A stretch of 23,499 nt of DNA from a virus. Within the stretch, counting starts at the first letter, position 1. Each line of letters starts with the position of its first letter. Position numbers and translations under genes: made by a program. Below are positions 1,596 to 22,439 of the stretch, in pieces. Location of the stretch: positions 1 through 23,499 of the IMG/VR virus record IMGVR_UViG_3300030099_002940. One strand, given 5' to 3'. The notes under the pieces are model-generated. The model worked only from the letters and a program-made list of their open reading frames with translations. It ran no database searches and was not told the DNA's origin.

Positions 1596-4500
1596 TTATT
1601 TTAATTTACGTTTTCCTTTTAATGTTTTACTTTTTAGTTTACTATGCTTTAGTTTATTATCACTAGCCCTTAATCCTTCGTCGTCTTCGGGCTCTAATTC
1701 CCATGTTGACCAGCCTAATATTAAAGCTACTCTTTGCCAAGCTTCAGTATCTTCGGCAACTGCTGCTCTATAATTATCGAATAATCTAACAACCCTATCT
1801 AAAGGGACATTAGTTCCGGCTGAAATAAATTGAGCAATAGCTAAATTTGCGGGGTTATCTAAGCTTAAACCTTCATCTAATATTTTATCCATTTCATTAT
1901 CAAAAGCATATAAACCACCTCTTATTTTTGTTATTTTAGAATCTATTGGCGGAGATACATCTAATAATTTCCATGCAGCATCCCCAAACTTAGGTCTAGG
2001 TCTTTGTGATCTTTTTGCAATATCTATTAATATATTCTTTCCAACCGCCACCGCATTTCCAACAACACCTGTTCCTCTTAATATAGAATCAAGCATGCCA
2101 TTCATAGTCCCATATGTTTTATTATCATTAAATTTTTCATCGTCTTCTTCTCCCATGCCAATAGCAAACAATGCTTGTTGTAATGCGTTAAATATAAAGT
2201 TTTGTATAACACCGTAATACATTACTTTAGACATATTAGTTTTCCAATCTCCTCTTCCTGCTATTAAATCCTGAGTACCTCTTTTCATTAATCTAGCATA
2301 CTGCATTGGAGTATTAGCAAACGCTAATAATATACGACCAAAAACGCTAGCTTGTTGTCTAGATATTCTATCAGGTCTGCTTGATTGCTGTGCTTCTTCT
2401 GTTAATTCTCTAAAATCTTGAAAAGCTTTTGTTTCAGCTTCTTTTTGAGATAATCCTTGTTTTATGTATGTATTAATTCTATTTCTATAAAATGTTGCAC
2501 CACCGTTTGCTATAGCAAAACTATCAGCGCCTCTTGTTAATATAAAGCCTTTATTTAATAAATAACTAATAACACCTCTAACACCCTTTTTATTTGCTTG
2601 TTCTGCAATTTCAGCTTCATTAATATTTAATTTTAAACCACCTCTTCTTTCAACTAAAAAATCTGAATTAAATATAAATTTAAAATCTTTCCAAAATTGC
2701 GGTTGATTACCATAAGCAATAGCTGCTTTTATAGGATTATTATCAGACCAGTTTATATAGTTTACTGTTGAAATCATCTGTAATAAAGCTGATCGAACGT
2801 TTAAGAACATAATAACACCAACAGAATTATTAATCCATTCTAACCATGCGTTTACTTGTTTATTACCGCCGCCAGTTCTATTTGTGCCGGTCTTCATTCT
2901 TGTTAAAATATTCTCTAAAGCATTTCTATAATCCGGTCCAAAAGCCGCTTCTAATTTATTTAAATTTTCTTGAGTAAATATTTCATCAACATTTTTTTGC
3001 CATTTTTGTAAATACTTAGCTCTTTTTACTGTATTTAAATTTTGAAATAAATCTGTAGTAATAGTGCCTGAATCCCATGTATTATCAGGCTTTACATATC
3101 CCTCTTGTTTATTTATTGTAATTAATTGATTTGCAAAATCAGTTAGTTCTTTATCTTTTTTAACAAAGTTTACTAATTTTGTTTCGTCAGTTTTTGTTAA
3201 CCCAGGAATTTTCATTCCTTGTTTATTCCATATATAAACCCTTACAGCATCCTGAATTGTATAATCTCCGTTTAATATTTCTTTTTTAAGAGTTTTTGGT
3301 ATATTTTTAATTTTTGATTTAAGAGCTTTAAAATCATTCATTACCGCTATTCTTTCGCGGCTTAAATTTTCCATTGCAATACCATATGGTCTGAATAAAT
3401 TTTGCCTCATCCACTCCATAGCTTTATTTCCTAAATCACCTTTTGGCAATAAAGCATACATTAAGCCTTGGAAATCTTCAGCACCGTATGGTATAAAAAA
3501 GTTCATAATGCCTTTTTCAGCTTTTTTGCCTCTCATTGCTGCTTTTTTAGGTGAAAATCTTTTTTCACTAGCAAATTTAGCTCCCTTTTTTTGCTCTATT
3601 ATATCATTTAAATCTTGACTTAAATTAGATTTTTGACTTTCTAATGCAACTAAAGGTGTACCATCATTTTTTATATTATATTTTTGTTCAAAATTTCTGT
3701 CTAAATTATATGCGTCTCTTAAATTTTTAAAATTAATACCACCATCAATTGCAGCAACAAGTGCGTTTGCATATCTTTCTATCATTCTATTATTATATAT
3801 AGTCCAAATTCTTCCCATGCCATTTTTTAAGGATTTTTTTTCTCCCCTACTATCAATATATACAGCCTTATCTAATTTATCATTATCTATTTTATCTAGT
3901 GCTATTAATTTATATTCGCCATATAATATACTTAATTCAGCTATAAAATCAGGAAGACCTGATATTTCAACTTCACCTTTATCATTTAGTTCACCTCTTC
4001 TTTCATAAGCTATTCTGGTTGCTTCTATAAATGCGTTTATATTTTGTAAAGCATGCTCAAATACTAATTCTGTTTCTTTATCGCCTTTAATAATTTTTTC
4101 TATAGCTACAATATCAAGACCTACAAATTCAGCGCCCTTTCTATGAAAATGATCACCTTCACTTACCGCATTTTCTAAAAAATGTAATATAGTTGTAATA
4201 TTATTTACGTTATTTTCTATAGCTAAAAATAAAGATTTCCAGCCATCAAACCAAGCTTTTCTAGTTATTTTATTTATTTTTTCTATGTTTTCAGAAAATT
4301 TTTCTTTATCTTTATATAATTTTATTAATTGTTCCTTATCCATTTTAGGAGAAGTATAAATACCATCAGTATCTTTTCCATAAGTATACCCATTGCCCTT
4401 TTTTACCCAAAATTTATCTTTAAATAATTCTTTTTTTATTGCTTCTCTGAATTTTGTTCTTTTTAATTTATTTTCTTTTCCTTTAAATTCTTTTGTTTTA

Positions 4501-7500
4501 AATAAATTTAATCCGTTATATAAAGAACCTGAATTGAGCAAGCCAGGTGAATCTTTAAAATACGGTAGTATATTTTTTCTAAAATCTTTAGCATATTTTA
4601 ATACAGTATTTTCATTTAATTCATAATAAGTATCTATTTGTAAATCTTCTGCTAAAGCAGCTTTTAAACTTAAAAGAGCATCGGCTTTTCCCGCGGCTAC
4701 ATCTGTTGTTTGCTGTGGTGTTAAAACAGTTTCGCTTCTATATAAGCTATTAGTAATAGCTCCATCTACCATTTTTATTATAGATTTAATATTTTGTGCT
4801 TGTGGTGATCTTGCTATAGCCGGAGTTCCTTTTTTACCAACTAAATTTATAATATCTTCAATTGTTGCGGCTTCATTTCTTACAAAAGGTGCTAAACCTG
4901 CGCCTTTTCCACCTCTTTCTTGTCTTTTATATAATGGGCTTTTTAATAATCCTCTAGATAATCCCGTCGATGTTCCTTCTAAGTTTTTTGAAACAGATGT
5001 ACCTTCAACAACAGCACCCTCAGGCCTTATATCTAAAATTAATTTAGCATTTTTAATAATAGCTTGCCTGCCGTTAATAACCTCTTGTTTTGTTAGATTA
5101 CTTTTAACATCTGTAAATTTTCCAGCCGGAACATTAAATATTTGAGACGTTACCGGGGCTGTTATATTTCCTAATGTAGCGTAACTTAATGTTGATAAAT
5201 CTCTTTCATCTTGGGCTATAAGAGCTTTAGCTTGATCTAATTGATCTTGATTATATAATCTTTCAGCTAAATTTATTGTTTTTACAGGAACATCAGTTAA
5301 ATTAGGATCAATATCTTCTTCTTGAATAATTTGTTGAGTAGTCTGTTCATTTATTTTTTGATCTATACCCTGTTCTACAGATTTTATTCCTAATCTTTGT
5401 GCTAAGTTATTAGCTCTTAAAAAACCTCTATTAGTAATAAACTTTTCAATATTTTGTAATCCCTTGAATTCTTCAAATATCATTGCATGAATATCTGATT
5501 TCATGGTTTCTTTAAAAGTGCTTCTATCAACATCTTGTTTTGCATCGGGTGCTATTGGATCATATAATGCTTTAGTTCTGCTTTCAACAAAACTATCTAC
5601 AGTAGGTTTTACTTTTTCAATAATTGAATTTTCAATTTTAGTTTCAGATGGTGTTTTTTGATATGGCTTATTAAATTTACTTGCTAAATCTTCTGCTTCT
5701 TTTCGAGCTTTTTGTAAATTATTTATTTCATTTGCAATATCTTGTTGCACTTCGCTTGATAATTTAGATTCTAAAGGCTCTTTTTCTATTTCTGTTTTAC
5801 CTTTTTTAACAACAGTTGCAACATTAGAAGCTGCAGCTTCAATAATTTCTTTTTTAGTAACAGGAAGACCGTTAAAAGCATTATGTTTTTTAATTAATTC
5901 TAAAGCATTGCTAGCGTTTATGTTGTCAGCTATTCCAATAAAATCTTTAAGTTTATTTGAATACGCCATTCCAATTCTTTTAAATACACCAGCTTGTTCT
6001 ATATTTTCTAATGCTTGTAAACCGCTTAATACGTCAGATATAGCTGCAAAATATTCATGAGACTGGACGTCTTGGCTTTTATCTTTATATTGACCAAACC
6101 TTTCCTGTATTGCTTTATATATTTTTTGTATTTGAGGATCTTGGCTTTCTTTAAGTGCGGCGTCAATTTCATTTAATAGTTCAAAACGTTTTTCAGGAGA
6201 CAAGTTATCGAGTAGCATGTGCAAAACCTCATGGTGGACAACATTACCAGCTGCATAATCTCCTTTTTTTGATTCTTTACTAAGGGGGTTTAATGCGTTA
6301 TTTATTACTCTATCCTCTATTATATAAGCCACCTTTCGATCACCCGCTAATATACCGTTATTATCACCATCAAGCCATTCTTGTATTTTTTTATCTTTTA
6401 AATCTTTTGGCCTATGCTTTTTTATATACTGAAGTAATTCCTCTTTGTTTTTTCTAGTAATAATTTTTTTGCCTTTTAGCGCTCCAAAATTATTTTCATT
6501 TACAAACTCTATTAGTTTACTACCGTGAGCTATATAGTTATTAGCTATTAATATATTAAGCATTTGATCATCAATGTCAGCTAATTGTAATTTAGTTTCA
6601 TTTAGTTCAATTTCTAAATCTATATCATTTGGATTTTCTTTTAATTGATTTTCTAAGCTTTCTATTTTATCAAATGTTTTTTGCCTAGCTATTTCTTGTT
6701 CAAAAAATAATTTTTTAGAATTAGTTTTTTTGCCATTAAAGTTATATTCTTCAGAGCTTAAATTATTAAATTTGCTATTTCTAGTTAAATTCTCAGCAAT
6801 ATCTATTTGCCTTAATAAATCTAATTTTTCGTTTTCAGATTTGGTGGTGTCCTCTTTAATTTGCTTACGCATAGTTTTAGCTAATGCGCTTACGCTTTTA
6901 GGATCAGTTGCGGCGGCATATTGCGACATGCCTTCATTATAAGCTATACTTACTCCTTGTATTGATGTTTGAACTCCTCCGGCACCTATAATTGTTTGAG
7001 CTGCAGTTTCAAGCAATAGCTCAAGCGTTATTGGGTCTTCTGCTGTAATTGCCGAATTAACTTCTTGTGTAATTTCTGTTACAACCTCAGTTCCAGTTCC
7101 TATAGCTTGATAACCTATTTCCTTTTTAATTGGTTTAAAATTACCTTTTAAAGCTCTTCTCCAAGCATCTTTTGGAATAAATTTTGCCGCTCGCCCGACT
7201 ACAGCAGCTGCACCCGCAAAATCTAAACCTTGGTTTATAACACCAGTTCTAACAGATTTATCTAATATATCCTCAGCTCTACCGTCTTTTATTATATTAA
7301 ACATTGCATCCCCTTGTTCTTTTGAGGATAAGTTCATAAATTCTTGCTCAGATAAATTTAAATCTTCAGCAGCTCTTTTAGTAAGCATTCTTTCCATCAC
7401 ATTTCCAGCCTCTTGAAAATATGTAGCGCCAAAAAAACTAGATAACATTTGTGGTAATTGTTCTCCTACTACTTGAGGTATTTCTCTTAGCTGCAAGTCA

Positions 7501-8090
7501 AATTCTAAACCATCTTTTCCTTCTTTAAAAATTTGAGCTTTTTCAAATTTATCTATTTTGTCTTGTATTTCTTTGCTTTGCTGAAAATTTTCAAACCATA
7601 TTTTTTCTTGCTCTGCTATTTTTTCTTTATAAAACTCTAAAGCTTCTTCTTTATTAACTTCTTTACCTTTATAAAAAGCGCCTCTAGGAACGGCTACTCC
7701 ACCTACAAAAAATGTTTCGTCGTCTGAACTATTATTTATAAAATTAATTTTTTTATTAAGATTGGTTATTTCTCTGCCGGCTCTCATCATAGGGCCATAT
7801 GCTGCGTAACCTTTATAAACATTTTTAAGACCTATGCCTACAGATTCAAAAATATCGGCTTTAATTTTTGGTTTTGACTTATCTAGATAATTAGATGTAT
7901 TTTGTTTTAAAACACCTATTGCTGTTTCTTTTTGAATAGACGTAGGTAATTTATCAGTATACTTAACATAAAAAGAGTCTATTGCTTTATCAGGATCTAA
8001 AGTTAAAGCATATTTAATTTTTTCGTTAACTTCATCAGAAGATAAATCTTTAGCGTATTTACCATATAATATTTTTAACAATTCTTCCAT
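1596..8090 (-). CDS. Giant virion protein (2164 aa): predicted ejected polyvalent protein with zincin motif and LPD38-like region
   Basis: This is by far the largest gene here, and it sits where phages keep ejected internal proteins. Residues about 285-380 are Gly/Ala-rich and hydrophobic, with the TEVVTEITQE pattern seen in ejected proteins. Residues about 450-520 look like coiled coil. At 620-624 is HEVLH, the HExxH zinc site of zincin metallopeptidases, preceded by a likely edge strand (GDRKVAYIIEDRV). A possible third ligand is Glu679 in SHEYFAAISD. Residues about 1530-2040 contain FFIPYGAEDFQGLMYALLPK and SRQQASVFGRILLAFANTPM. I recall these from large polyvalent proteins, and the latter part resembles the LPD38 domain (Iyer et al. 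family set). A hydrophobic stretch lies near 1955-1976, and the C-terminus is a Lys/Arg tail. The role is probably protection or takeover in the entered cell, or wall or membrane passage during ejection. The start overlaps the previous stop (TAATG). The peptidase motif is visible; activity is inference. Confidence 0.85.
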   Translation of the reverse strand: MEELLKILYGKYAKDLSSDEVNEKIKYALTLDPDKAIDSFYVKYTDKLPTSIQKETAIGVLKQNTSNYLDKSKPKIKADIFESVGIGLKNVYKGYAAYGPMMRAGREITNLNKKINFINNSSDDETFFVGGVAVPRGAFYKGKEVNKEEALEFYKEKIAEQEKIWFENFQQSKEIQDKIDKFEKAQIFKEGKDGLEFDLQLREIPQVVGEQLPQMLSSFFGATYFQEAGNVMERMLTKRAAEDLNLSEQEFMNLSSKEQGDAMFNIIKDGRAEDILDKSVRTGVINQGLDFAGAAAVVGRAAKFIPKDAWRRALKGNFKPIKKEIGYQAIGTGTEVVTEITQEVNSAITAEDPITLELLLETAAQTIIGAGGVQTSIQGVSIAYNEGMSQYAAATDPKSVSALAKTMRKQIKEDTTKSENEKLDLLRQIDIAENLTRNSKFNNLSSEEYNFNGKKTNSKKLFFEQEIARQKTFDKIESLENQLKENPNDIDLEIELNETKLQLADIDDQMLNILIANNYIAHGSKLIEFVNENNFGALKGKKIITRKNKEELLQYIKKHRPKDLKDKKIQEWLDGDNNGILAGDRKVAYIIEDRVINNALNPLSKESKKGDYAAGNVVHHEVLHMLLDNLSPEKRFELLNEIDAALKESQDPQIQKIYKAIQERFGQYKDKSQDVQSHEYFAAISDVLSGLQALENIEQAGVFKRIGMAYSNKLKDFIGIADNINASNALELIKKHNAFNGLPVTKKEIIEAAASNVATVVKKGKTEIEKEPLESKLSSEVQQDIANEINNLQKARKEAEDLASKFNKPYQKTPSETKIENSIIEKVKPTVDSFVESRTKALYDPIAPDAKQDVDRSTFKETMKSDIHAMIFEEFKGLQNIEKFITNRGFLRANNLAQRLGIKSVEQGIDQKINEQTTQQIIQEEDIDPNLTDVPVKTINLAERLYNQDQLDQAKALIAQDERDLSTLSYATLGNITAPVTSQIFNVPAGKFTDVKSNLTKQEVINGRQAIIKNAKLILDIRPEGAVVEGTSVSKNLEGTSTGLSRGLLKSPLYKRQERGGKGAGLAPFVRNEAATIEDIINLVGKKGTPAIARSPQAQNIKSIIKMVDGAITNSLYRSETVLTPQQTTDVAAGKADALLSLKAALAEDLQIDTYYELNENTVLKYAKDFRKNILPYFKDSPGLLNSGSLYNGLNLFKTKEFKGKENKLKRTKFREAIKKELFKDKFWVKKGNGYTYGKDTDGIYTSPKMDKEQLIKLYKDKEKFSENIEKINKITRKAWFDGWKSLFLAIENNVNNITTILHFLENAVSEGDHFHRKGAEFVGLDIVAIEKIIKGDKETELVFEHALQNINAFIEATRIAYERRGELNDKGEVEISGLPDFIAELSILYGEYKLIALDKIDNDKLDKAVYIDSRGEKKSLKNGMGRIWTIYNNRMIERYANALVAAIDGGINFKNLRDAYNLDRNFEQKYNIKNDGTPLVALESQKSNLSQDLNDIIEQKKGAKFASEKRFSPKKAAMRGKKAEKGIMNFFIPYGAEDFQGLMYALLPKGDLGNKAMEWMRQNLFRPYGIAMENLSRERIAVMNDFKALKSKIKNIPKTLKKEILNGDYTIQDAVRVYIWNKQGMKIPGLTKTDETKLVNFVKKDKELTDFANQLITINKQEGYVKPDNTWDSGTITTDLFQNLNTVKRAKYLQKWQKNVDEIFTQENLNKLEAAFGPDYRNALENILTRMKTGTNRTGGGNKQVNAWLEWINNSVGVIMFLNVRSALLQMISTVNYINWSDNNPIKAAIAYGNQPQFWKDFKFIFNSDFLVERRGGLKLNINEAEIAEQANKKGVRGVISYLLNKGFILTRGADSFAIANGGATFYRNRINTYIKQGLSQKEAETKAFQDFRELTEEAQQSSRPDRISRQQASVFGRILLAFANTPMQYARLMKRGTQDLIAGRGDWKTNMSKVMYYGVIQNFIFNALQQALFAIGMGEEDDEKFNDNKTYGTMNGMLDSILRGTGVVGNAVAVGKNILIDIAKRSQRPRPKFGDAAWKLLDVSPPIDSKITKIRGGLYAFDNEMDKILDEGLSLDNPANLAIAQFISAGTNVPLDRVVRLFDNYRAAVAEDTEAWQRVALILGWSTWELEPEDDEGLRASDNKLKHSKLKSKTLKGKRKLK

Positions 8091-9556
8091 TATAACAGAT
8101 CTAGATTTACTTCTTCAGGTAATAGTCCAAATATTCCTCCAGCTCCTTCGGTTTGCCTATTAGTTGTATTAGTGTCAAAATCAATTTTAAAATCTTTAGC
8201 ATTATTTAAATAAAAATCAATTACATCGTCAGTAACACCTGCTATTCTTAAATATGTTTTAAATAAATCTGTAGTATTATCTATTGGTATTTCATTTTGA
8301 TTTTTATCAAAAATTCTCCCTGAATTTATCTTATTAAATTCTTCTCTTTTTTCTTTATCAGTTAATTTATTGAATTTTTTAGTTGATATACCAACTAGTT
8401 CAGCGGCTGCCTCAGGGTCTGAAATAAAAATTTCAAAAAATTCATTATCAGATAAGAATTCATTATTAATATCTAATTTTTTTAATTGTCTAGCTATTGC
8501 GTCATTATCTAAATTATTAGTTGCAAATTTAAAAGCTTCTTGTATTTTAGGATATGCTAATGTAATTTCTTGTTGTTTTGCTTTGGTAAAGTTAGAAAAT
8601 AAATTATTATTGTTGTTGTTGTTAAGGGTAGATAAGTATTTTTTATAGTGATCTTGATTTATATTTACCGCATGGTCTAATAATTTTTGTACAACTTTTT
8701 CTTTATTTTCTTGGCTAGTTGGATTATTTAATATTTCAGCTAACTCAGGATCTCCGTCTTCATATAATGGTATACCAGCAAACATATCTTTATCTTTTAA
8801 TATAGAAAGAATTCTGTCTTCAGCGTCAGGCCCTGTAAATAAATTTGATATATCTCTTTTTGCTTTTGAATAATAATATGAATCATTTTTATATTCTAAG
8901 CCCTGTGTACCCGCTCGTAATGCTGTAAAAATTATAGGGTCTATTTGTTGTAAAAACTCTTTATCTTTTTGATACCAATTAAAATCAGAATTTGTTAATA
9001 CACCATCATACCCCTCAACAGTATATTGAGCATTCATATTATCATCATATGTTACACTAAAACTTCCGCCAGGAGCAAATATTGCATCAAAAGCTCTTGT
9101 TTTTTCAGTGTCAAATCCTAAAGAAACTTCGCTTCTATTAGCATTCCATTCAGCTCTTTTTGCTTGTAAATCAATTAAATTAGTATTAGCGTTTTGATAA
9201 TTTTGTTTAATTTTATTTAATTCAGTAGATAAATTTGCATATTCAGGATCTCTAGGACTCATTGCGGCTAATTTATTAGCTATATCTGCGAATTTTTGTT
9301 TTTGTGCTAAAGCTACAGGCGCTAAAGCTTCTCTATGTAAATCATCAACTTTAGAAAATTCTATTTCCGGTGGAAACTGATTTAATATATTTATAGCTCT
9401 ATTATCAATCAAATTTCTGTATTCTCTTTCTGCTTTTATTGCTTCTGTAATATTACTTGTAGTTTTTGCAATACTTTTATCTATAGCCTGTGCTAAACCT
9501 TTATTAAATCCACCTGCTGCTAATCTAGCGCCTAATATTAAATTTTTATCTGCCAT
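8090..9556 (-). CDS. Putative internal virion / ejected cargo protein (488 aa)
   Basis: I know no characterised homologue. The N-terminal 35 residues have a small-residue, amphipathic character (GARLAAGGFNKGLAQAIDKS). They are followed by a predicted helical, charged segment to about residue 150, suggestive of a rod or coiled coil. The middle is richer in aromatics (YYYSKAKRDI), and the C-terminus is acidic, ending GIFGLLPEEVNLDLL. A run of seven asparagines lies near residue 314. There is no signal peptide or clear membrane segment. It lies between the Gln/Ala-rich internal protein and the giant zincin protein, and its stop overlaps the start of the giant (TAATG). That placement suggests a partner in the same ejected complex. 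A structural tail protein is the main alternative. Confidence 0.72.
   Translation of the reverse strand: MADKNLILGARLAAGGFNKGLAQAIDKSIAKTTSNITEAIKAEREYRNLIDNRAINILNQFPPEIEFSKVDDLHREALAPVALAQKQKFADIANKLAAMSPRDPEYANLSTELNKIKQNYQNANTNLIDLQAKRAEWNANRSEVSLGFDTEKTRAFDAIFAPGGSFSVTYDDNMNAQYTVEGYDGVLTNSDFNWYQKDKEFLQQIDPIIFTALRAGTQGLEYKNDSYYYSKAKRDISNLFTGPDAEDRILSILKDKDMFAGIPLYEDGDPELAEILNNPTSQENKEKVVQKLLDHAVNINQDHYKKYLSTLNNNNNNNLFSNFTKAKQQEITLAYPKIQEAFKFATNNLDNDAIARQLKKLDINNEFLSDNEFFEIFISDPEAAAELVGISTKKFNKLTDKEKREEFNKINSGRIFDKNQNEIPIDNTTDLFKTYLRIAGVTDDVIDFYLNNAKDFKIDFDTNTTNRQTEGAGGIFGLLPEEVNLDLL
8605..8626 (-). repeat. Short trinucleotide repeat coding for seven asparagines
   Basis: GTT/ATT units in series (AAC/AAT on the coding strand) form a run inside the 488-residue cargo protein gene. 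The stretch is a simple repeat and could change length by slippage without changing frame. No regulatory meaning is implied. Confidence 0.6.
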
Positions 9557-9565
9557 AATTTATGT

Positions 9566-10309
9566 TTAAAATAGTCCAAAAGGGCCACCTTGAAAATTTA
9601 TGTTGTTTTTAGTTTTTTTATTTCTTTTAGATCTACTCGGTAAAAATCCGCCTGTACTACCTGGTAAATTTTTCATTGCTTCATCAGCCACCACGGCTCC
9701 CGCTGCGCCCCCTGCCATATCTGTTAATCCGCCAACTAACTGGTTGGTAGCATCTTGTCTAGCTTGATCTGCCGCTGCTTTTCTTTGTTGAGCCATACCA
9801 AGTAATGTACTTTGTTTTTCAAAAGCCATTTTTTGTGATTGTCTTTCACCTCCTGCAATTGCCATTTGTCTTCTGCTTTCTCCTTGTGCAGCTAACATTT
9901 GATTTCTTGTTTCTTGTTGAGCAATACTAGCAGATGCTTGTTGAGCTGCTCTAGCTTGTGAGTTTGCCATTGACTGCGCTAATGCCGCAATACCTCCGCC
10001 ACCTGCTGAAGCTGCTAAATTATTCATAATATTAGCTGCTCCTTGAGCATTTTGCTGAGCTGCAAAATCCGCTGCTTGAGTATTAACGGTAAGGTTTTCA
10101 AATGGATTAGTTAAATTTTTATAAGGATTAGATGTGTCTAAACTTTCAAATTTAGCTCTTTCTTGTGCTAATTCATTTGCGGCTGCTCTTTGCTCACGTC
10201 TTCTTTTGCCACCGCCAAATAAGCTAGCGCCGACTTTTATTATACCGCCTAATGCCTGTCCTGCCGCTTGTACGCCGGCTGACGCTATCATTCCTGTTGG
10301 ATCCACCAT
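9566..10309 (-). CDS. Gln/Ala/Gly-rich internal virion protein, possible membrane-pore component (247 aa)
   Basis: Residues 8-35 form a glycine-zipper-like hydrophobic stretch (IASAGVQAAGQALGGIIKVG), followed at once by a basic patch KRRREQR. The middle is rich in Ala, Gln and Met, with helical character (SARAAQQ-type repeats around ASASIAQQE). The tail has a basic segment SRSKRNKKTKNN and ends FQGGPFGLF. Phages of the T7/N4 and crAss-like types have small ejected proteins of similar composition near the tail genes, and these insert into the cell envelope. Similar sequences are common in marine phage metagenomes. The gene lies between the tail stabilization protein, from which it is separated by 28 bases, and the 488-residue cargo protein. 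The ejection role comes from composition and place, not from a recognised domain. Confidence 0.72.
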   Translation of the reverse strand: MVDPTGMIASAGVQAAGQALGGIIKVGASLFGGGKRRREQRAAANELAQERAKFESLDTSNPYKNLTNPFENLTVNTQAADFAAQQNAQGAANIMNNLAASAGGGGIAALAQSMANSQARAAQQASASIAQQETRNQMLAAQGESRRQMAIAGGERQSQKMAFEKQSTLLGMAQQRKAAADQARQDATNQLVGGLTDMAGGAAGAVVADEAMKNLPGSTGGFLPSRSKRNKKTKNNINFQGGPFGLF

Positions 10310-10337: not shown

Positions 10338-13300
10338 TTAACTACTTATACTAATTTCAGAACCAACTGAGTATAACTCTTTGGAATCTGTTGAAGTATT
10401 TTTAAATTTTGTTTCTGCAAAGTAACCTAAAAGACCAGATGTATAAAATTTAGCATTCTTTGCATAAAACATATATGCTGAGGCTTGAGGAACTTCACTT
10501 GTGTTTACTATAGTTACTGTTTTGTTTGTTTTATTTATCGCTGTAATTTTACCTAAATCTTGTTTATTACTTGATCCGTCTACATAATACAGCTTATCTC
10601 CAATTTGCATATCATTATTTAATTCAAAATTAAATGTAAACACCCTATTACTTCCGACTACAGCCTGCGAGGTATATGCGCCTAACCCTTGAACATTTAA
10701 TGCTTTTAAATCTATTGTTGATTCTGTTTCTTCAACACCAGATATATAATTATAGTATTTGTTTTCTTTTTTAATAAAAGAAGATATTGAACCATCTTGC
10801 TGATCAGTTACTATGCTATCGCATGTCCATCCAGTATCTCCCTCATAATTGAGTGTTCTAAAGTTTTTCATGTTAGCAGGAGATTGATTCAATAAAAATG
10901 TAACTTCTGAATCTGTTTTTACACCATAAAAAGTATTTCTAGTGCCAATATGATGTTCAAATATATGGCCGTTTTTAAAAGTAAAATATTTATTATTCAT
11001 ACTTAACCCGTTTTCAAATACAAAACTTTTTCTACTAGGCCAACCTTTTATTGATTCGGCATAAGAAACAGTGTTATTAACAGAAATAGGTAAACTTACG
11101 TTATATTGATTCTTTTTTTCATCATAAGAGCCATGAATAAACCCTGTTTGTGCTCTTAAATTATCTTTAAAATAATCTTTCATGCCGAAATTAGATATTT
11201 CTTCCATACCATCTAAAGAATGTCTAACTACCACACCATTTTTTTTATCTACAAAATAAGACCTAAACGTATAATCTGAAAAACTTTCTGGATTTGTACC
11301 TATACCATAATTAGAATTATAGGGCATTGCTTGTCCTAAGACAGCTTTATTAGATGTAACATTAACATTACCATCAGCATTGAATAAAGCGTCTTTATTA
11401 GTTAATATTTTTAAAACTTTATCTTCACAATAAGCAATTATATCATTATATCTTGTATGTAATAGTTGTATGCTACCATAATCAGGATTTAATTGTTTTG
11501 TTATTGGCTCAGCTATAATAAATTGATTTAATCTATTTACACCTGTTTTGCCATTATATATTTGTGAAAAAATTAAATCAGATTTTAAATTTTCTTCTTG
11601 ATAATTATCTTCAAATATTGTTGATACCCTAACCCCTTTACCAAGAGCCGGCGCATTAAAATCATCTCTAATTATAAATGATTCAACGCCATTTTCAAAA
11701 CTAAAACAATTATAATATAATAATGAATTTTCATTACCATGATTACTAGCAATCGTTAAATCTTCTTGTGTTTCAAAATATAAATCTATATCTACGTCGT
11801 CTTGAGGTTCAACTTCAAATATAGGCGGATTAACTATATTTATTAAATCTTCAGAGCCTACTTCATATACTGTAATTTGAAAAATTTTATTATCATCTTG
11901 GCTTGCGCTTCCTGTAAAAAACTCTAAATTTTGTGCTAAATTTCTATTTAATTTAACAGCAAAAACTCTATTTGAATTACCGTTATCTTTTTTAAATACT
12001 GTTTCAATTTTATAAAAAGTATTGTCAGCCGCTTGATTTGCTGTAATTTGAGCAGGAGATCTATTAAATTGTATATAGTTGCCTTCTTTTAAATTTTGAA
12101 TAAAAGGATGAGAACCGTAAAAAGATTCTGCATCAGCAAATGTTCTATCTGTTTCAATTGCAAAATGATATCCATCAGATATAACTGAAGAAGGAAAACT
12201 AGAATATTCTCCGGGATTACTTTCTCCCCATCCGTCCCATCCACCAGAACTAGCAGATTGATTAATTCCAAATGAAGCCGAATTAGTATTTGCTTTACCT
12301 CCAAATCTTAGTTGAAAACCTCTTTCATCATCATCGTTTCTACCGTCTAAAGATATAGTACTTATGGCTTCAAAATTTTCTGCATCAGCCCCGCCTTTTA
12401 ATTGAGTTAATAAATTTGTATCAGCTTTTAATTTTAAAAAAAATCTACCTGCAAATTCAGCTTTACCACTTTCATCTTTTTCTTCAACTGCAATCATTTT
12501 TACACCACCCTTTAAAGCTGTAGTATCAGGGTTATTTTCAAAATCTTCATATAAAGATGCTACGTCATTTCCAAATTCAGTTTTAAAATGTAATTCTATA
12601 TCATCATTATCTTTAAAATTTACTTCCTTTTGCTTAACTTCATATATATCAGATTCAGAGTCCCCAGCTATAAATTTTACAAATTTTCCAGGGCTAACAG
12701 CTTCATAAGCAGGTCTTGAAACGCCATGAATATCAGCTCCGCCTGCAAAAGTATTACCATCTGCAATTTTAAGATCGCCAACGGAATTCATACTTCTAAT
12801 TGTTACTCTATTTTTATTTGGCACGGGTGTTGACCCTGGTTTTATAGTTGTTTGATCATTATCATTTTCATAATCAACACTAAATGCAAAATGTTCTGGT
12901 CTATAAAATTCTTTTTTTGGTTTTGCTAAAAATGGTGGTGGTGTTGTAAGTTTATCTAAAACTTTAAATTTATCTTCTATGTCCGAAAACTCGGACCCTG
13001 ATTTCTTTTTTAATAATAAAATATCATCAATATTAACTTTATTTATTTCTGAAGAAGGAAAAGCTACGTACATATAGCCTTGTTTATCTTGATAAAAACT
13101 ATCTGCACATAAATTATGTACTGTAGATGATATTTCTTTTATAAAATATTTATAATTAGTTGCAAATGACGGCGCAGAAGAAGTAACTTTAGCGGTAAAC
13201 TTAGTCATGTTTTTAGCTTCGCCTTGAGGTACTTTTATTATTCCTGTTTTATCAGTTAAAACGGGGGTTTGTCTACCATATGTGTCTGTATATACTACAC

Positions 13301-14759
13301 CGAATTGATATGTTCTATTTGATTTTATAGATTGTCTTTCTGCTCTATTAGAAGCGTTTGATGCGTATCTATTTTTTAATTTTATATCAAATTGAACTGG
13401 CGTAAGCGGTAAATCAAATTGATGAGTAAAATTACCATATATTAATCTATTAGCTGTTATATCTTGTGCTTTAGCTTTTTTAGGTACGCTGTCGAATAGT
13501 CTTAATAATTGATTTGACGGTAGCACTTTAAATATTTGTTCATCTTTTACCTGAAAAGTTGAAGCTATTGAATTATTAGCTTGTCTTTTTATAGTATCAA
13601 CAACATAACAATTGTTACCAACAGAATCTTTATATATTACATCAATTTCTTTTACGTCTGCACTTATGTTATTATTTAACCCTTGTAGCTCTAATGATCT
13701 TAATGTGTTGACCATTGCTAGGTTAAATCCGTCTTCCGCATTGTATTCAAAACCTGAATTACTCCCCACTGTTGAATCAGGTAAAAAAGCAGCATTACTA
13801 AATGGAGAAAAACAACTATATTGACCGTTATCATATTTGTACCTATAAGCAAATCTAGGAAATTTTAATTGAAACAAAGGCTCATCTTCTTGCAATAAAC
13901 AAGAATATGCAACTGTAGCCGCTCTCATTTGTTTGCTAGTTGTTAATATTTCAGCGCTAAAAGTTGTTCCTGAAATAGCTGTTATTTTTAATCTTGCTTC
14001 TGTTTTTGTTATTTCTCCGCTTGTACTATCTGTAAATTCAAATTTAATAATTATAACATCATTTACTTGATAGTTAGGAGCTGTGCTAAATGTTTGATTT
14101 GTTAAAATTGTACCTGAAGTTTTTGCATTTGCTAATCCGGAACCAGTTGAAGTGGCCATTAATAAATTAGATGTTACAGAAGCACCACCTTGAGTACCCG
14201 CACCTGTTCTTAAAGAACTTTGCATATTTAGTGTAGGCGCTTGCATAGGAGACTTTTTAATTACAGTAATTCTTTCTTCTGATAAACCTGTTGTAGCAGA
14301 ATTAAAGTTTGAAGTTTGAGTTTTCCAATAAGCAATATCAACTTGTTTAGGTTCGTTTAAATTATCTGTAAAATATAATATACTATCTAAAACATTAACA
14401 CCTGTTATTAAATTATTAGTATTAAATTTTAATATATTACCTGTATCTACTATTACGGCGGCAGCAGTCGAAGTAACTACATCATATTCGGCTATAATAT
14501 CTTTTGCTGGCGAAGTTATAAACCAATATATTTTATCATTTTCAGTATCTTTAACACTGCCTATGCAAGTTGCATCAGATAAGCTAATACTATCTTTTTG
14601 AGTATTACCTAAAATATTTTTTAATGCGCCAACGTCACTACCTTCTGAGTAATCAACATCTATATTAAGCGCATCTCTATATTGACCATTAGGAACTAAT
14701 CTTTCATCAAGGTCTTTATTCATTTTACCCTTTATGAAAGCGTTTTTAATTTCAGGCAT
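10338..14759 (-). CDS. Large tail protein of the crAss-like 'stabilization protein' / muzzle type (1473 aa)
   Basis: The N-terminus has KGKMNKDLDERLVPNGQYRD, running into ALNIDVDYSEGSDVGAL. I recall this signature from crAss-like and marine phage 'stabilization' proteins. In the crAss001 virion the corresponding large protein appears to form the tail muzzle; I am confident of the family and less so of that assignment. Most of the chain is beta-rich, with many short Asn/Ser/Thr/Asp-rich segments, as expected of a tail assembly protein. The C-terminus, SGLLGYFAETKFKNTSTDSK followed by ELYSVGSEISISS, is also a family end. There is no signal peptide or enzyme motif. It follows the 293-residue connector gene after 3 bases. 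It probably caps the tail tube and holds or exposes the ejected proteins encoded next. Confidence 0.83.
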   Translation of the reverse strand: MPEIKNAFIKGKMNKDLDERLVPNGQYRDALNIDVDYSEGSDVGALKNILGNTQKDSISLSDATCIGSVKDTENDKIYWFITSPAKDIIAEYDVVTSTAAAVIVDTGNILKFNTNNLITGVNVLDSILYFTDNLNEPKQVDIAYWKTQTSNFNSATTGLSEERITVIKKSPMQAPTLNMQSSLRTGAGTQGGASVTSNLLMATSTGSGLANAKTSGTILTNQTFSTAPNYQVNDVIIIKFEFTDSTSGEITKTEARLKITAISGTTFSAEILTTSKQMRAATVAYSCLLQEDEPLFQLKFPRFAYRYKYDNGQYSCFSPFSNAAFLPDSTVGSNSGFEYNAEDGFNLAMVNTLRSLELQGLNNNISADVKEIDVIYKDSVGNNCYVVDTIKRQANNSIASTFQVKDEQIFKVLPSNQLLRLFDSVPKKAKAQDITANRLIYGNFTHQFDLPLTPVQFDIKLKNRYASNASNRAERQSIKSNRTYQFGVVYTDTYGRQTPVLTDKTGIIKVPQGEAKNMTKFTAKVTSSAPSFATNYKYFIKEISSTVHNLCADSFYQDKQGYMYVAFPSSEINKVNIDDILLLKKKSGSEFSDIEDKFKVLDKLTTPPPFLAKPKKEFYRPEHFAFSVDYENDNDQTTIKPGSTPVPNKNRVTIRSMNSVGDLKIADGNTFAGGADIHGVSRPAYEAVSPGKFVKFIAGDSESDIYEVKQKEVNFKDNDDIELHFKTEFGNDVASLYEDFENNPDTTALKGGVKMIAVEEKDESGKAEFAGRFFLKLKADTNLLTQLKGGADAENFEAISTISLDGRNDDDERGFQLRFGGKANTNSASFGINQSASSGGWDGWGESNPGEYSSFPSSVISDGYHFAIETDRTFADAESFYGSHPFIQNLKEGNYIQFNRSPAQITANQAADNTFYKIETVFKKDNGNSNRVFAVKLNRNLAQNLEFFTGSASQDDNKIFQITVYEVGSEDLINIVNPPIFEVEPQDDVDIDLYFETQEDLTIASNHGNENSLLYYNCFSFENGVESFIIRDDFNAPALGKGVRVSTIFEDNYQEENLKSDLIFSQIYNGKTGVNRLNQFIIAEPITKQLNPDYGSIQLLHTRYNDIIAYCEDKVLKILTNKDALFNADGNVNVTSNKAVLGQAMPYNSNYGIGTNPESFSDYTFRSYFVDKKNGVVVRHSLDGMEEISNFGMKDYFKDNLRAQTGFIHGSYDEKKNQYNVSLPISVNNTVSYAESIKGWPSRKSFVFENGLSMNNKYFTFKNGHIFEHHIGTRNTFYGVKTDSEVTFLLNQSPANMKNFRTLNYEGDTGWTCDSIVTDQQDGSISSFIKKENKYYNYISGVEETESTIDLKALNVQGLGAYTSQAVVGSNRVFTFNFELNNDMQIGDKLYYVDGSSNKQDLGKITAINKTNKTVTIVNTSEVPQASAYMFYAKNAKFYTSGLLGYFAETKFKNTSTDSKELYSVGSEISISS

Positions 14760-20015: not shown

Positions 20016-22439
20016 TTACCTAGGATCAAACGCACCTAAGTCAAAATCACCGCTTATTACATCATTGCCAGCCGACTCAAAACTTTTAGGCGGTGTATTA
20101 TTTTTTCTTTGTTCTATGAGTTCACTTTGTTGGCTAGCTTGTATTTTAGTTCTTTCGTCTTTACGATCTTCTTTTTTATTTATTTTTTGTTCTTCGCTAG
20201 AAGACTTTACTTTAGCTAATTCCATATTCATTTGGAATTCTAAGTTCATTAAATCTTTTTTCAATCCAGCTTCAGCCTGTAATTTTTGCATTTCCAATTG
20301 ACTTTTTGCTTGTTCTAATTGAATTTTACTTTGAGTTAAAGCTTGTTGTTTTTGCACTTCAGCTTGTGCTGCAACTTGTTGCGCTTGAGCATTTGCCTGT
20401 GCTTGTGCTTGAATATTTTGTTGAGCTATTTGCTGATCTTTTTCTTGTTTTTTCTTTCTTCTAAATTTTAAAAGTTGATTAGCTAATTTAACATTTTTAA
20501 TTTGTCTAATATCTATAGCGTCATCTAAATCAATATTATTTTGAGCAATTGCTACTTGTATATTATTTTCTAATAATTGTTTTTCTTCTTCGTCAGGAGC
20601 TAATTCTATAAATATTCCAAAATCATGTAAATGCAATTCTGTTAATTCATCTAATGTTCCCACATTATGAACACCTATGCTTTGTATAAATGCATTTTTT
20701 GTTGGGGAAAATTCTAAAACATCTGATATTCTTAATGATATTTTTTCTGCAGTTTCTGCTGTTAAAAATAATCCGCTTTGTAATATGTGTCTTGTTGCTG
20801 TATTACTATTAGCCGCTGCTAATTTTTGAACACCAACTAAAGCATTTTTATCAGGCGTACTACCGTCTCTTGCTTCATTTAAACCAGTAGCATCTCTAAT
20901 CATTTGCATATAATAATTATAAGTACTTATTAATGCGCTTAATTTTCCGGTGCCAGCATTGTTGCTTATTTCTTGTATAGGTACTTTACCAGGATTCATA
21001 TCTCCTTCTGATGTAAATGATCTACCTATAATTGAACCTGTTTGAAAAAACATATTTAATGCTTCTTGTGGATTATAATTAGTACCATTACCTAAATCTA
21101 CTTCAGCAAGACCGTCAGCATCTAAATACACACCATCAGGAACCATTCTTGAAAGTATTTGTTGTATTTTTAAATGAGTTAACTGAATCATATCGGCAAA
21201 ACCAGTTATTCTACTAACTAAAGACTCAACTCTTCCATCATAAACCCTAGGCGCTACTAATGAATAATTCATTTTAACTTTATTAACATCACTTTTTTCA
21301 CGCAACATATTATCACAAAGTTTCCAATCTAATAATATATTAGAACCAGGAACATAAACACCTTCGTAAAGTACCTCAATATTTTTTGCAATTCTTTCAA
21401 ATCTTAATCCTTCCGAAGCGGGAGGATTAAAAGCATCCGATTTTTTAATTATTTTTTCAGCGCCTGTTGCTGTTTGTTTAACCTTATATACTTCATTCAT
21501 ATATGTTTTATAATTGAAATACATAACTTGCACTGAATTATTATCTTTATTATTTATTTTACTATTATATTTATTATATATATTATAATCTTGATTTCCT
21601 TGTTGTGTAATCTTATTTAAATCTTCATTAGATAAATTAGGAAATTGTTTTTTTAATTCATTAATAGTTATATTTTTTATTTCACCAATATAATATATAT
21701 CATCAAAATAAGGAGACTCAGTATAAGAATAAACAATATTTGCAGGATCTACATAATCAATAACTATACCTTCTGATTGAGTAAAGCTATTTTTAACACA
21801 ACCCATTCCTAAAACAGTTAAATCATAATAAAATCTTTTTTTAGTTAATTCATATCTGTTTTGTTCAAATATCGTAGATATAGCTTGTTCTTCTGCTAAT
21901 TCTATAGCTTGCTTGTAATTTAATTGCATATGCAATTGTAACTCTTCTTGATTTTCAGGTAGTTGATCAGATGGTGTATTAGCTATATTTATACCAAATT
22001 GTTCTAATGAAAAATCAGAAATATCTTTAGTAGCCATATCGTCCACTATGCTTTGCATATAATCTGTTCTTTGTTTAACACCAAATGGGTCTTGTGAGTA
22101 TGCTTTTATATCATATGTTCTTTCTGCAATACCATTTACAACTATATCTACAAACTTAGGTATAATAGGTACTGGCTTCCAATCTAAGTTTAAATAACTT
22201 AAATCACCGTTTATTGATAATTCATCTTTATATTTCTGTATACTTTGTTCTCCCCTTGCATATAATCTTAATTTATGATAGTTGTTTTGATTTATAGAAA
22301 ATCTATTAACACCACGATCTCTTTTAAACCACTCATTTTCTATAGCTTTAGCTACTTTCATTCCATAATCCTGAGATAGTTTTTCATCATCGCTAGCCAC
22401 TTGGCTGGGGAAATAACTGTTATAACTAGATTCAGCCAT
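20016..22439 (-). CDS. Portal protein (807 aa) with a long Gln-rich coiled-coil C-terminus
   Basis: This sits right after the terminase and overlaps it by 8 bases. The core resembles crAss-like and marine phage portals. Landmarks are an N-terminal helical segment (GMKVAKAIENEWFKRDRGVN), the central FRFERIAKNIEVLYEGVYVP-like region, and near residues 514-540 the conserved ATGLNEARDGSTPDKNALVG with VQKLAAANSN just after. Portals form the dodecameric gate through which the terminase pumps DNA. From about residue 660 to 745 the chain is a Gln/Ala-rich coiled coil (QQIAQQNIQAQAQANAQAQQ) plus a charged linker, making it larger than the common 450-550-residue core. This tail resembles a barrel or head-interior extension. 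The last residues are acidic (FDLGAFDPR). Identity as portal is firm; the tail's role is inference. Confidence 0.87.
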   Translation of the reverse strand: MAESSYNSYFPSQVASDDEKLSQDYGMKVAKAIENEWFKRDRGVNRFSINQNNYHKLRLYARGEQSIQKYKDELSINGDLSYLNLDWKPVPIIPKFVDIVVNGIAERTYDIKAYSQDPFGVKQRTDYMQSIVDDMATKDISDFSLEQFGINIANTPSDQLPENQEELQLHMQLNYKQAIELAEEQAISTIFEQNRYELTKKRFYYDLTVLGMGCVKNSFTQSEGIVIDYVDPANIVYSYTESPYFDDIYYIGEIKNITINELKKQFPNLSNEDLNKITQQGNQDYNIYNKYNSKINNKDNNSVQVMYFNYKTYMNEVYKVKQTATGAEKIIKKSDAFNPPASEGLRFERIAKNIEVLYEGVYVPGSNILLDWKLCDNMLREKSDVNKVKMNYSLVAPRVYDGRVESLVSRITGFADMIQLTHLKIQQILSRMVPDGVYLDADGLAEVDLGNGTNYNPQEALNMFFQTGSIIGRSFTSEGDMNPGKVPIQEISNNAGTGKLSALISTYNYYMQMIRDATGLNEARDGSTPDKNALVGVQKLAAANSNTATRHILQSGLFLTAETAEKISLRISDVLEFSPTKNAFIQSIGVHNVGTLDELTELHLHDFGIFIELAPDEEEKQLLENNIQVAIAQNNIDLDDAIDIRQIKNVKLANQLLKFRRKKKQEKDQQIAQQNIQAQAQANAQAQQVAAQAEVQKQQALTQSKIQLEQAKSQLEMQKLQAEAGLKKDLMNLEFQMNMELAKVKSSSEEQKINKKEDRKDERTKIQASQQSELIEQRKNNTPPKSFESAGNDVISGDFDLGAFDPR

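Follow-up and report, generated by a model that had tools for sequence, protein, structure and literature searches.

The window analyzed here is a stretch of 23,499 nucleotides (positions 1 to 23,499) from the IMG/VR virus record IMGVR_UViG_3300030099_002940, which contains 24,120 bases. The last large gene of its structural operon lies at 1596–8090 (minus strand) and, from an ATG start, encodes a giant protein of 2164 amino acids. We favor, with moderate confidence, the reading that this is a giant cargo or ejection protein carrying a zincin that acts after delivery, and that the phage is of the podovirus type and most likely infects Bacteroidota. The source is probably a marine short-tailed phage, whose giant protein would be shot into the host together with the DNA. 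In kind, the protein appears to belong to the known zincin-bearing polyvalent ejection proteins, while its C-terminal part defines an undescribed family. A preliminary description of this DNA, made from the letters alone, had marked the same open reading frame (ORF) without stating its strand. It had also proposed that the protein is part of the virion and probably gets into the host at infection. Synteny speaks for this proposal: giant "structural" proteins of cultured flavophages occupy the same place, as does crAss001 gp47, a protein detected in virions by published mass spectrometry.

According to the favored reading, the phage head would hold the giant protein together with two smaller ejection proteins, whose genes directly precede its own in the operon. 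At infection the giant protein would be threaded through the portal and the muzzle and would arrive in the envelope or cytoplasm of the host before the DNA does. The conserved helical part of about 650 residues at the C-terminus may serve as the packaging or ejectosome part, and the N-terminal 500 or so residues may lead or touch the membrane. The zincin domain (residues ~540–700) would be an active metalloprotease at work after delivery. Most likely it would cut the giant polypeptide itself and thereby free the variable middle region; cleavage of a host protein is the main rival to such self-processing and appears less likely. The analysis directly shows the gene, its zincin signature, the conserved family at the C-terminus and the order of the genes, from which packaging, ejection, the protease activity and its target are inferred.

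Gene Order and Cultured Counterparts

The giant gene is encoded among the late structural genes, as is the case for phage-type polyvalent proteins, and all neighboring large ORFs share its strand. It follows a muzzle gene and two smaller genes, which is the position of a podovirus ejection protein. The muzzle or tail-nozzle protein (10338–14759, minus strand, 1473 amino acids) matched PF25729 crAss_MUZ_C with 34.1 bits against a cut-off of 27 and is 31–33% identical to structural proteins of Cellulophaga, Flavobacterium and Maribacter phages. The next two genes encode an Ala/Gly/Gln-rich protein of 247 amino acids (9566–10309, minus strand) and a protein of 488 amino acids (8090–9556, minus strand), the putative first and second members of a three-protein ejection or cargo set. 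They occupy the positions of gp99 and gp100 in phi38:1 and of gp45 and gp46 in crAss001, respectively. No relatives of these two proteins were detectable in the phage collection, and their assignment is by position.

The order of muzzle, smaller proteins and giant protein is common to phi38:1 (gp97–gp101), MW202828, Panino, elemo and phi19:3, with one or more extra small genes in between in some of these phages. In Gundel_1 the last three genes stand in the same order (two smaller genes, then the giant), and crAss001 gp44–gp47 correspond to the window in the order muzzle, two smaller, giant. The crAss001 proteins gp45, gp46 and gp47 were detected in virions by mass spectrometry, the cargo set was placed inside the head and the tail barrel, and the authors propose its ejection (PMC10172136). 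This agreement in gene order and the crAss001 virion data are among the grounds for reading the window protein as ejected.

The giant protein resembles crAss001 gp47 in gene order, in size (2164 versus 2341 amino acids) and in the presence of an HExxH motif. In contrast, the motif of gp47 lies near the C-terminus (residue 2157), and no profile match was obtained: the C-terminal family profile described below matched none of crAss001 gp45–gp50. Equivalence with crAss001 gp47 and with phi38:1 gp101 consequently rests on position, and we describe the giant protein as working like a proven ejection protein rather than as a member of such a family. The motif of crAss001 gp47 (L171:26120–33145), a virion protein called an RNA-polymerase subunit, reads HEAFH and looks zincin-like. 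Proteomic data for phi38:1 gp101 were sought; the main text of the 2026 paper does not mention gp101, which is labelled a "structural protein". The Flavobacterium phage elemo encodes a syntenic giant protein, gp18 (3694 amino acids, "structural protein"), whose HEIFH region matched the zincin profile of the window family (36 bits, E 2e-11 in a small set, with a composition bias of 14.5 bits), but the C-terminal family profile did not match it.

Coliphage N4 ejects three proteins, of which gp50 is composed of an N-terminal part, an enzyme, an HExxH domain and a large helical C-terminal domain (PMC12633501). The similar domain order of this ejected protein is a further ground for the favored reading. 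Compared by its published description, gp50 (virion RNA polymerase, Schitoviridae) is likewise the giant of a three-protein ejection set. It differs from the window protein, in which the zincin lies in the N-terminal half and no RNA polymerase domain was found.

The giant protein might instead be a structural protein of the tail or baseplate type, which would remain in the particle throughout and not enter the host. We regard this as improbable. Cultured-phage relatives are indeed annotated only as structural proteins, but the gene lies behind the muzzle gene and two smaller ones, as in the crAss001 cargo set, and the polynucleotide kinase and DNA methylase that occur in relatives make little sense outside a cell.

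The Predicted Zincin Domain

The presence of a zincin-like metallopeptidase domain at residues ~540–700 (5991–6473, minus strand) is well supported by sequence comparison. The motif HEVLH occupies residues 620–624 (6219–6233, minus strand), and Glu679 (6054–6056, minus strand) lies within SHEYFAA, exactly where the preliminary description had placed them. Conservation was examined in 82 deduplicated relatives of 1888–3354 amino acids whose N-terminal part is not truncated at a contig border. Of these proteins, 70 have HExxH in the N-terminal part, compared with a mean of 0.36 and a maximum of 2 in composition shuffles, and none has it in the C-terminal part. Three further relatives carry HExxxH, two a degenerate EELFH, and seven have no detectable zincin. 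The Glu residue aligned with Glu679 is invariant in 70/70 aligned zincin domains, at a distance from the motif of 48–98 residues (56 in the window protein). The zincin region is very divergent; in an alignment of 18 proteins the only invariant columns are His620, Glu621, His624 and Glu679. A second, more diverse set (n = 17) again showed invariance of the Glu and the second His of HExxH and of the later Glu. By this invariance Glu679, formerly named as a possible third ligand, can be taken as the predicted third zinc ligand. Such strict conservation of the catalytic residues argues for catalysis and not merely for a structural role. Across the family the zincin is located at 22–66% of the chain, ahead of the variable region.

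An AF2 model of the domain reached a pLDDT of about 75–96 for most of residues 540–690. In this model HEVLH lies in a helix (138–148, model numbering) and Glu679 in a later helix (194–208), with strands before the HExxH helix. One of them (E108–112, corresponding to window residues ~587–591) is the edge strand that the preliminary description had expected in front of the motif. The predicted topology is compatible with that of zincins. VIA-align returned M34-type metalloproteases (Z 5.3–6.3) and PPEP-2 (Z 5.1) over 150–172 residues and IrrE over 94 residues (Z 4.1), all below the Z 8 guide of this tool. Foldseek searches of PDB and BFVD with the model gave nothing at E < 0.02 (best PDB match E 0.39), and a PDB profile search with the zincin alignment gave nothing. 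Thus, conservation strongly supports the earlier assignment as a zincin; support from the fold is weak and consists of low-Z zincin matches over most of the modelled domain. We consider the domain a candidate protease.

For the metallopeptidases (MPTases) of phage-type polyvalent proteins, Iyer et al. (2017) proposed that they either divide the chain into functional units or attack proteins of the host (PMC5512222). The window protein shares with them the HExxH helix, the strand before the motif, the downstream Glu helix, the HExxxH variants in some relatives and the context of a giant multidomain phage protein of a late operon. It differs in that its zincin is not placed in one of their 12 clades and its C-terminus is not a Pfam LPD domain.

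Among the seven relatives without a zincin, L091 retains a HAD domain and the other six are short forms without HAD. Full loss requires 4–5 changes on a tree of the C-terminal domains. As the zincin can be lost, the protease would be accessory to the particle, not core or essential. In the two EELFH proteins (L120 and L122) the first His is lost and the rest retained; these natural variants may be inactive.

Repeated loss also bears on the idea that the zincin is an effector which, after injection, cuts a host protein such as a defence, envelope or transcription factor, the rest of the giant protein being its delivery vehicle. The domain evolves fast outside the catalytic residues and was lost repeatedly, as expected of an effector in an arms race, and Iyer et al. 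mention host targeting as an alternative role of MPTases in polyvalent proteins (PMC5512222). We nevertheless hold this explanation to be rather unlikely: neither a target nor a defence-gene context was found, and a self-processing protease fits the same pattern. For the anti-defence function that the preliminary description had considered, the analysis yielded evidence neither in favor nor in opposition.

An even lower probability is given to a zincin that aids assembly, for example head packaging of the giant protein, or acts in head maturation instead of after delivery. In N4, encapsidation depends on the region that holds the HExxH domain, even though the protein is not processed (PMC5512222). 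On the other hand, the seven relatives that have fully lost the zincin retain the C-terminal family, and the strictly conserved catalytic residues favor catalysis over a structural role alone.

Several observations weigh against a giant ejection protein that processes itself after delivery. No cleavage site is known, published work on N4 describes gp50 as packaged without processing (PMC5512222), and the virion data come from crAss001. No sequence match was found between the giant protein and crAss001 gp47 or phi38:1 gp101. The zincin fold matches are weak, as listed above, and the domain is missing from seven relatives, with at least four changes on the tree, and lacks its first His in two more. 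Finally, zincin and HAD are associated in Fisher's test (p 0.001), but not when independent pairs are compared (p 1). Co-occurrence of the two domains as proof of autoprocessing was dropped, since it was unsupported once relatedness was considered.

The C-Terminal Family

The conserved, all-helical C-terminal domain comprises residues ~1485–2132 (1695–3638, minus strand). It is 47–88% identical across relatives, unlike their N-terminal parts, which can hardly be aligned. The conserved blocks which the preliminary description had seen at about 1530–2040 are therefore real and part of a longer domain. No match to this family was found in Pfam, PHROGs, NCBIfam or the PDB sequences, and a PDB profile search with the C-terminal alignment returned nothing. 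The structural model is all-helical and confident solely over the first ~250 residues.

No significant match was obtained when the giant protein was compared by BLAST with 50,697 phage records. A first alignment found 22 IMG/VR loci, the C-terminal alignment at least 530, and 14 further loci were detected in metagenome-assembled genomes. Four family phage contigs (L033, L036, L037 and L045) sit in such a genome labelled Woesearchaeota archaeon; they are most likely mis-binned viral contigs.

When a set of 34 sequences was searched with the C-terminal profile, it matched a "structural protein" of the cultured Tenacibaculum phage Gundel_1 from residue 2171 onward (E 4.2e-11) and a protein of the human-gut phage scaffold MT836673.1 (L170; E 9.9e-9). 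Reversed decoys scored no better than 0.17. The core common to the family and its profile matches includes a "QQSS/QQTT" motif. The Gundel_1 protein, Gundel1_74 (2482 amino acids), additionally resembles the window protein by an HEFGH motif and by its position after two smaller genes. It differs in an N-terminal part that is not recognisably related, and the match spans only about 130 profile positions. The MT836673.1 protein has 2739 amino acids and two HExxH-like motifs, and extends the C-terminal family to the gut.

In a Foldseek comparison of the C-terminal model with viral models, the close relatives were followed by Gundel_1 (E 2.4e-7) and several ART-PolyVal and large-polyvalent proteins. 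The link to the Gundel_1 "structural protein" by profile and by Foldseek is one of the reasons for the favored reading. The top solved structure was the PhiM1 ejectosome 8vb2 (Z 5.7, root mean square deviation 4.7, 171 residues aligned), a match within the noise of helical proteins and suggestive at most. The C-terminus forms a family of its own that is as yet undescribed and has Gundel_1 as a confirmed relative.

The preliminary description had proposed an LPD38-like end. PF18857 (LPD38) gave no match in the window or in the records of eight relatives at a cut-off of 27 bits. When the family was compared by hhalign with true LPD38 proteins taken from bacterial genomes, the probability was 0.1–0.3%, no better than with reversed LPD38. 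Consequently, the LPD38 identity was rejected as stated. What the domain has in common with LPD38 is the C-terminal position in giant phage proteins and a vague motif resemblance. We judge a divergent LPD38 domain to be unlikely. Pointing to it are a sub-threshold PF18857 match (20.4 bits) in the syntenic giant of Maribacter phage Panino, an LPD38 protein that ranked 50th in the fold search (E 1.4), and a common helical pattern seen by eye that ends in a "P(F/M)xNA/QY"-like block, on which the best profile alignment lands. Against it stand the missing PF18857 match in every relative scanned and the hhalign probabilities at decoy level.

N-Terminal Stretches and the Variable Middle Region

The Gly/Ala-rich stretches at residues ~288–372 (6975–7229, minus strand) had been noticed before at 285–380 and taken to suggest membrane contact. 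They are present, and weakly hydrophobic in the window protein (Kyte-Doolittle peaks of 0.97 and 1.07); several relatives reach 1.3–1.7. Membrane contact is plausible, but the case is weak.

No library family matched residues 700–1500, in agreement with the preliminary description, and the zincin is the sole enzymatic domain identified in the window protein. A match to PF22330 (mS39 PPR; E 5e-4, 20.3 bits, cut-off 27) was judged spurious, since it was seen in only one of 18 relatives. The relatives carry swappable enzymes after the zincin, namely HAD (52 of the 82, by profile), polynucleotide kinase and, in one case, a DNA methylase, and these add to the grounds for the favored reading. In L031 (3511–11172), L025 and L026 the HAD phosphatase domain just before the C-terminal domain is interrupted by a P-loop kinase (AAA_33/polynucleotide kinase), an arrangement that resembles bifunctional polynucleotide kinase-phosphatase.

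Residues ~787–925 (5316–5732, minus strand) form a divergent copy of a module whose versions in relatives look, by eye only, like sigma-70 region 2. The module (EILTGxRGVxDLIxxYxPxSGVPLAAYIN) is present in 25/82 relatives, for example at L003:8138–8617 and L031:5746–6222. Its best alignment to sigma-70 region 2 falls in the expected register, but with an hhalign probability (P 0.05) no better than decoys the assignment was rejected and the resemblance retained merely as a lead. A PDB profile search with the module found no sigma factor.

Tentatively, and as a possibility we consider rather unlikely as yet, the C-terminal ~650 residues may be an undescribed rear delivery domain common to a very large group of uncultured marine phages, in front of which injected enzymes are swapped, with the zincin as release protease. 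These enzymes would comprise the zincin, the polynucleotide kinase-phosphatase, the DNA methylase and the sigma-70-region-2-like module, which could then redirect host RNA polymerase. At least 530 viral contigs encode the C-terminal domain, yet it is undescribed in the four databases searched. If it is a general packaging or ejection domain, the family identifies the protein payload of a major group of marine phages. The cultured Gundel_1, elemo and Cellulophaga phages would then provide a handle on what giant virion proteins do during the first minutes of an infection. With four invariant residues at hand, a single point mutation would be enough to test the protease question.

Further Observations

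The portal protein (20016–22439, minus strand, 807 amino acids) is 53% identical to the "P22 like portal protein" of MW202828 and 43–46% identical to flavobacterial phage portals. The syntenic giants of MW202828 (L165:242–11821) and Panino (L007:35423–40912) are annotated as "reticulocyte binding/rhoptry protein" and "tRNA methyltransferase", respectively; both look like misannotations. In phi19:3 gp129 (L009:21801–27416) the N-terminal part matches the giants of phi38:1, Calle and Gundel, and the matches of the C-terminal half are to an "ADP-ribosyltransferase" encoded by Pseudoalteromonas phage Y3 and to a structural protein from pelagiphage HTVC027P, a pattern that suggests module swapping. 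The giant gene is followed at 185–1593 on the minus strand by six consecutive small ORFs (44–93 amino acids), most of them lysine-rich, such as the 44-amino-acid ORF at 1459–1593. They possibly encode small basic proteins associated with the virion.

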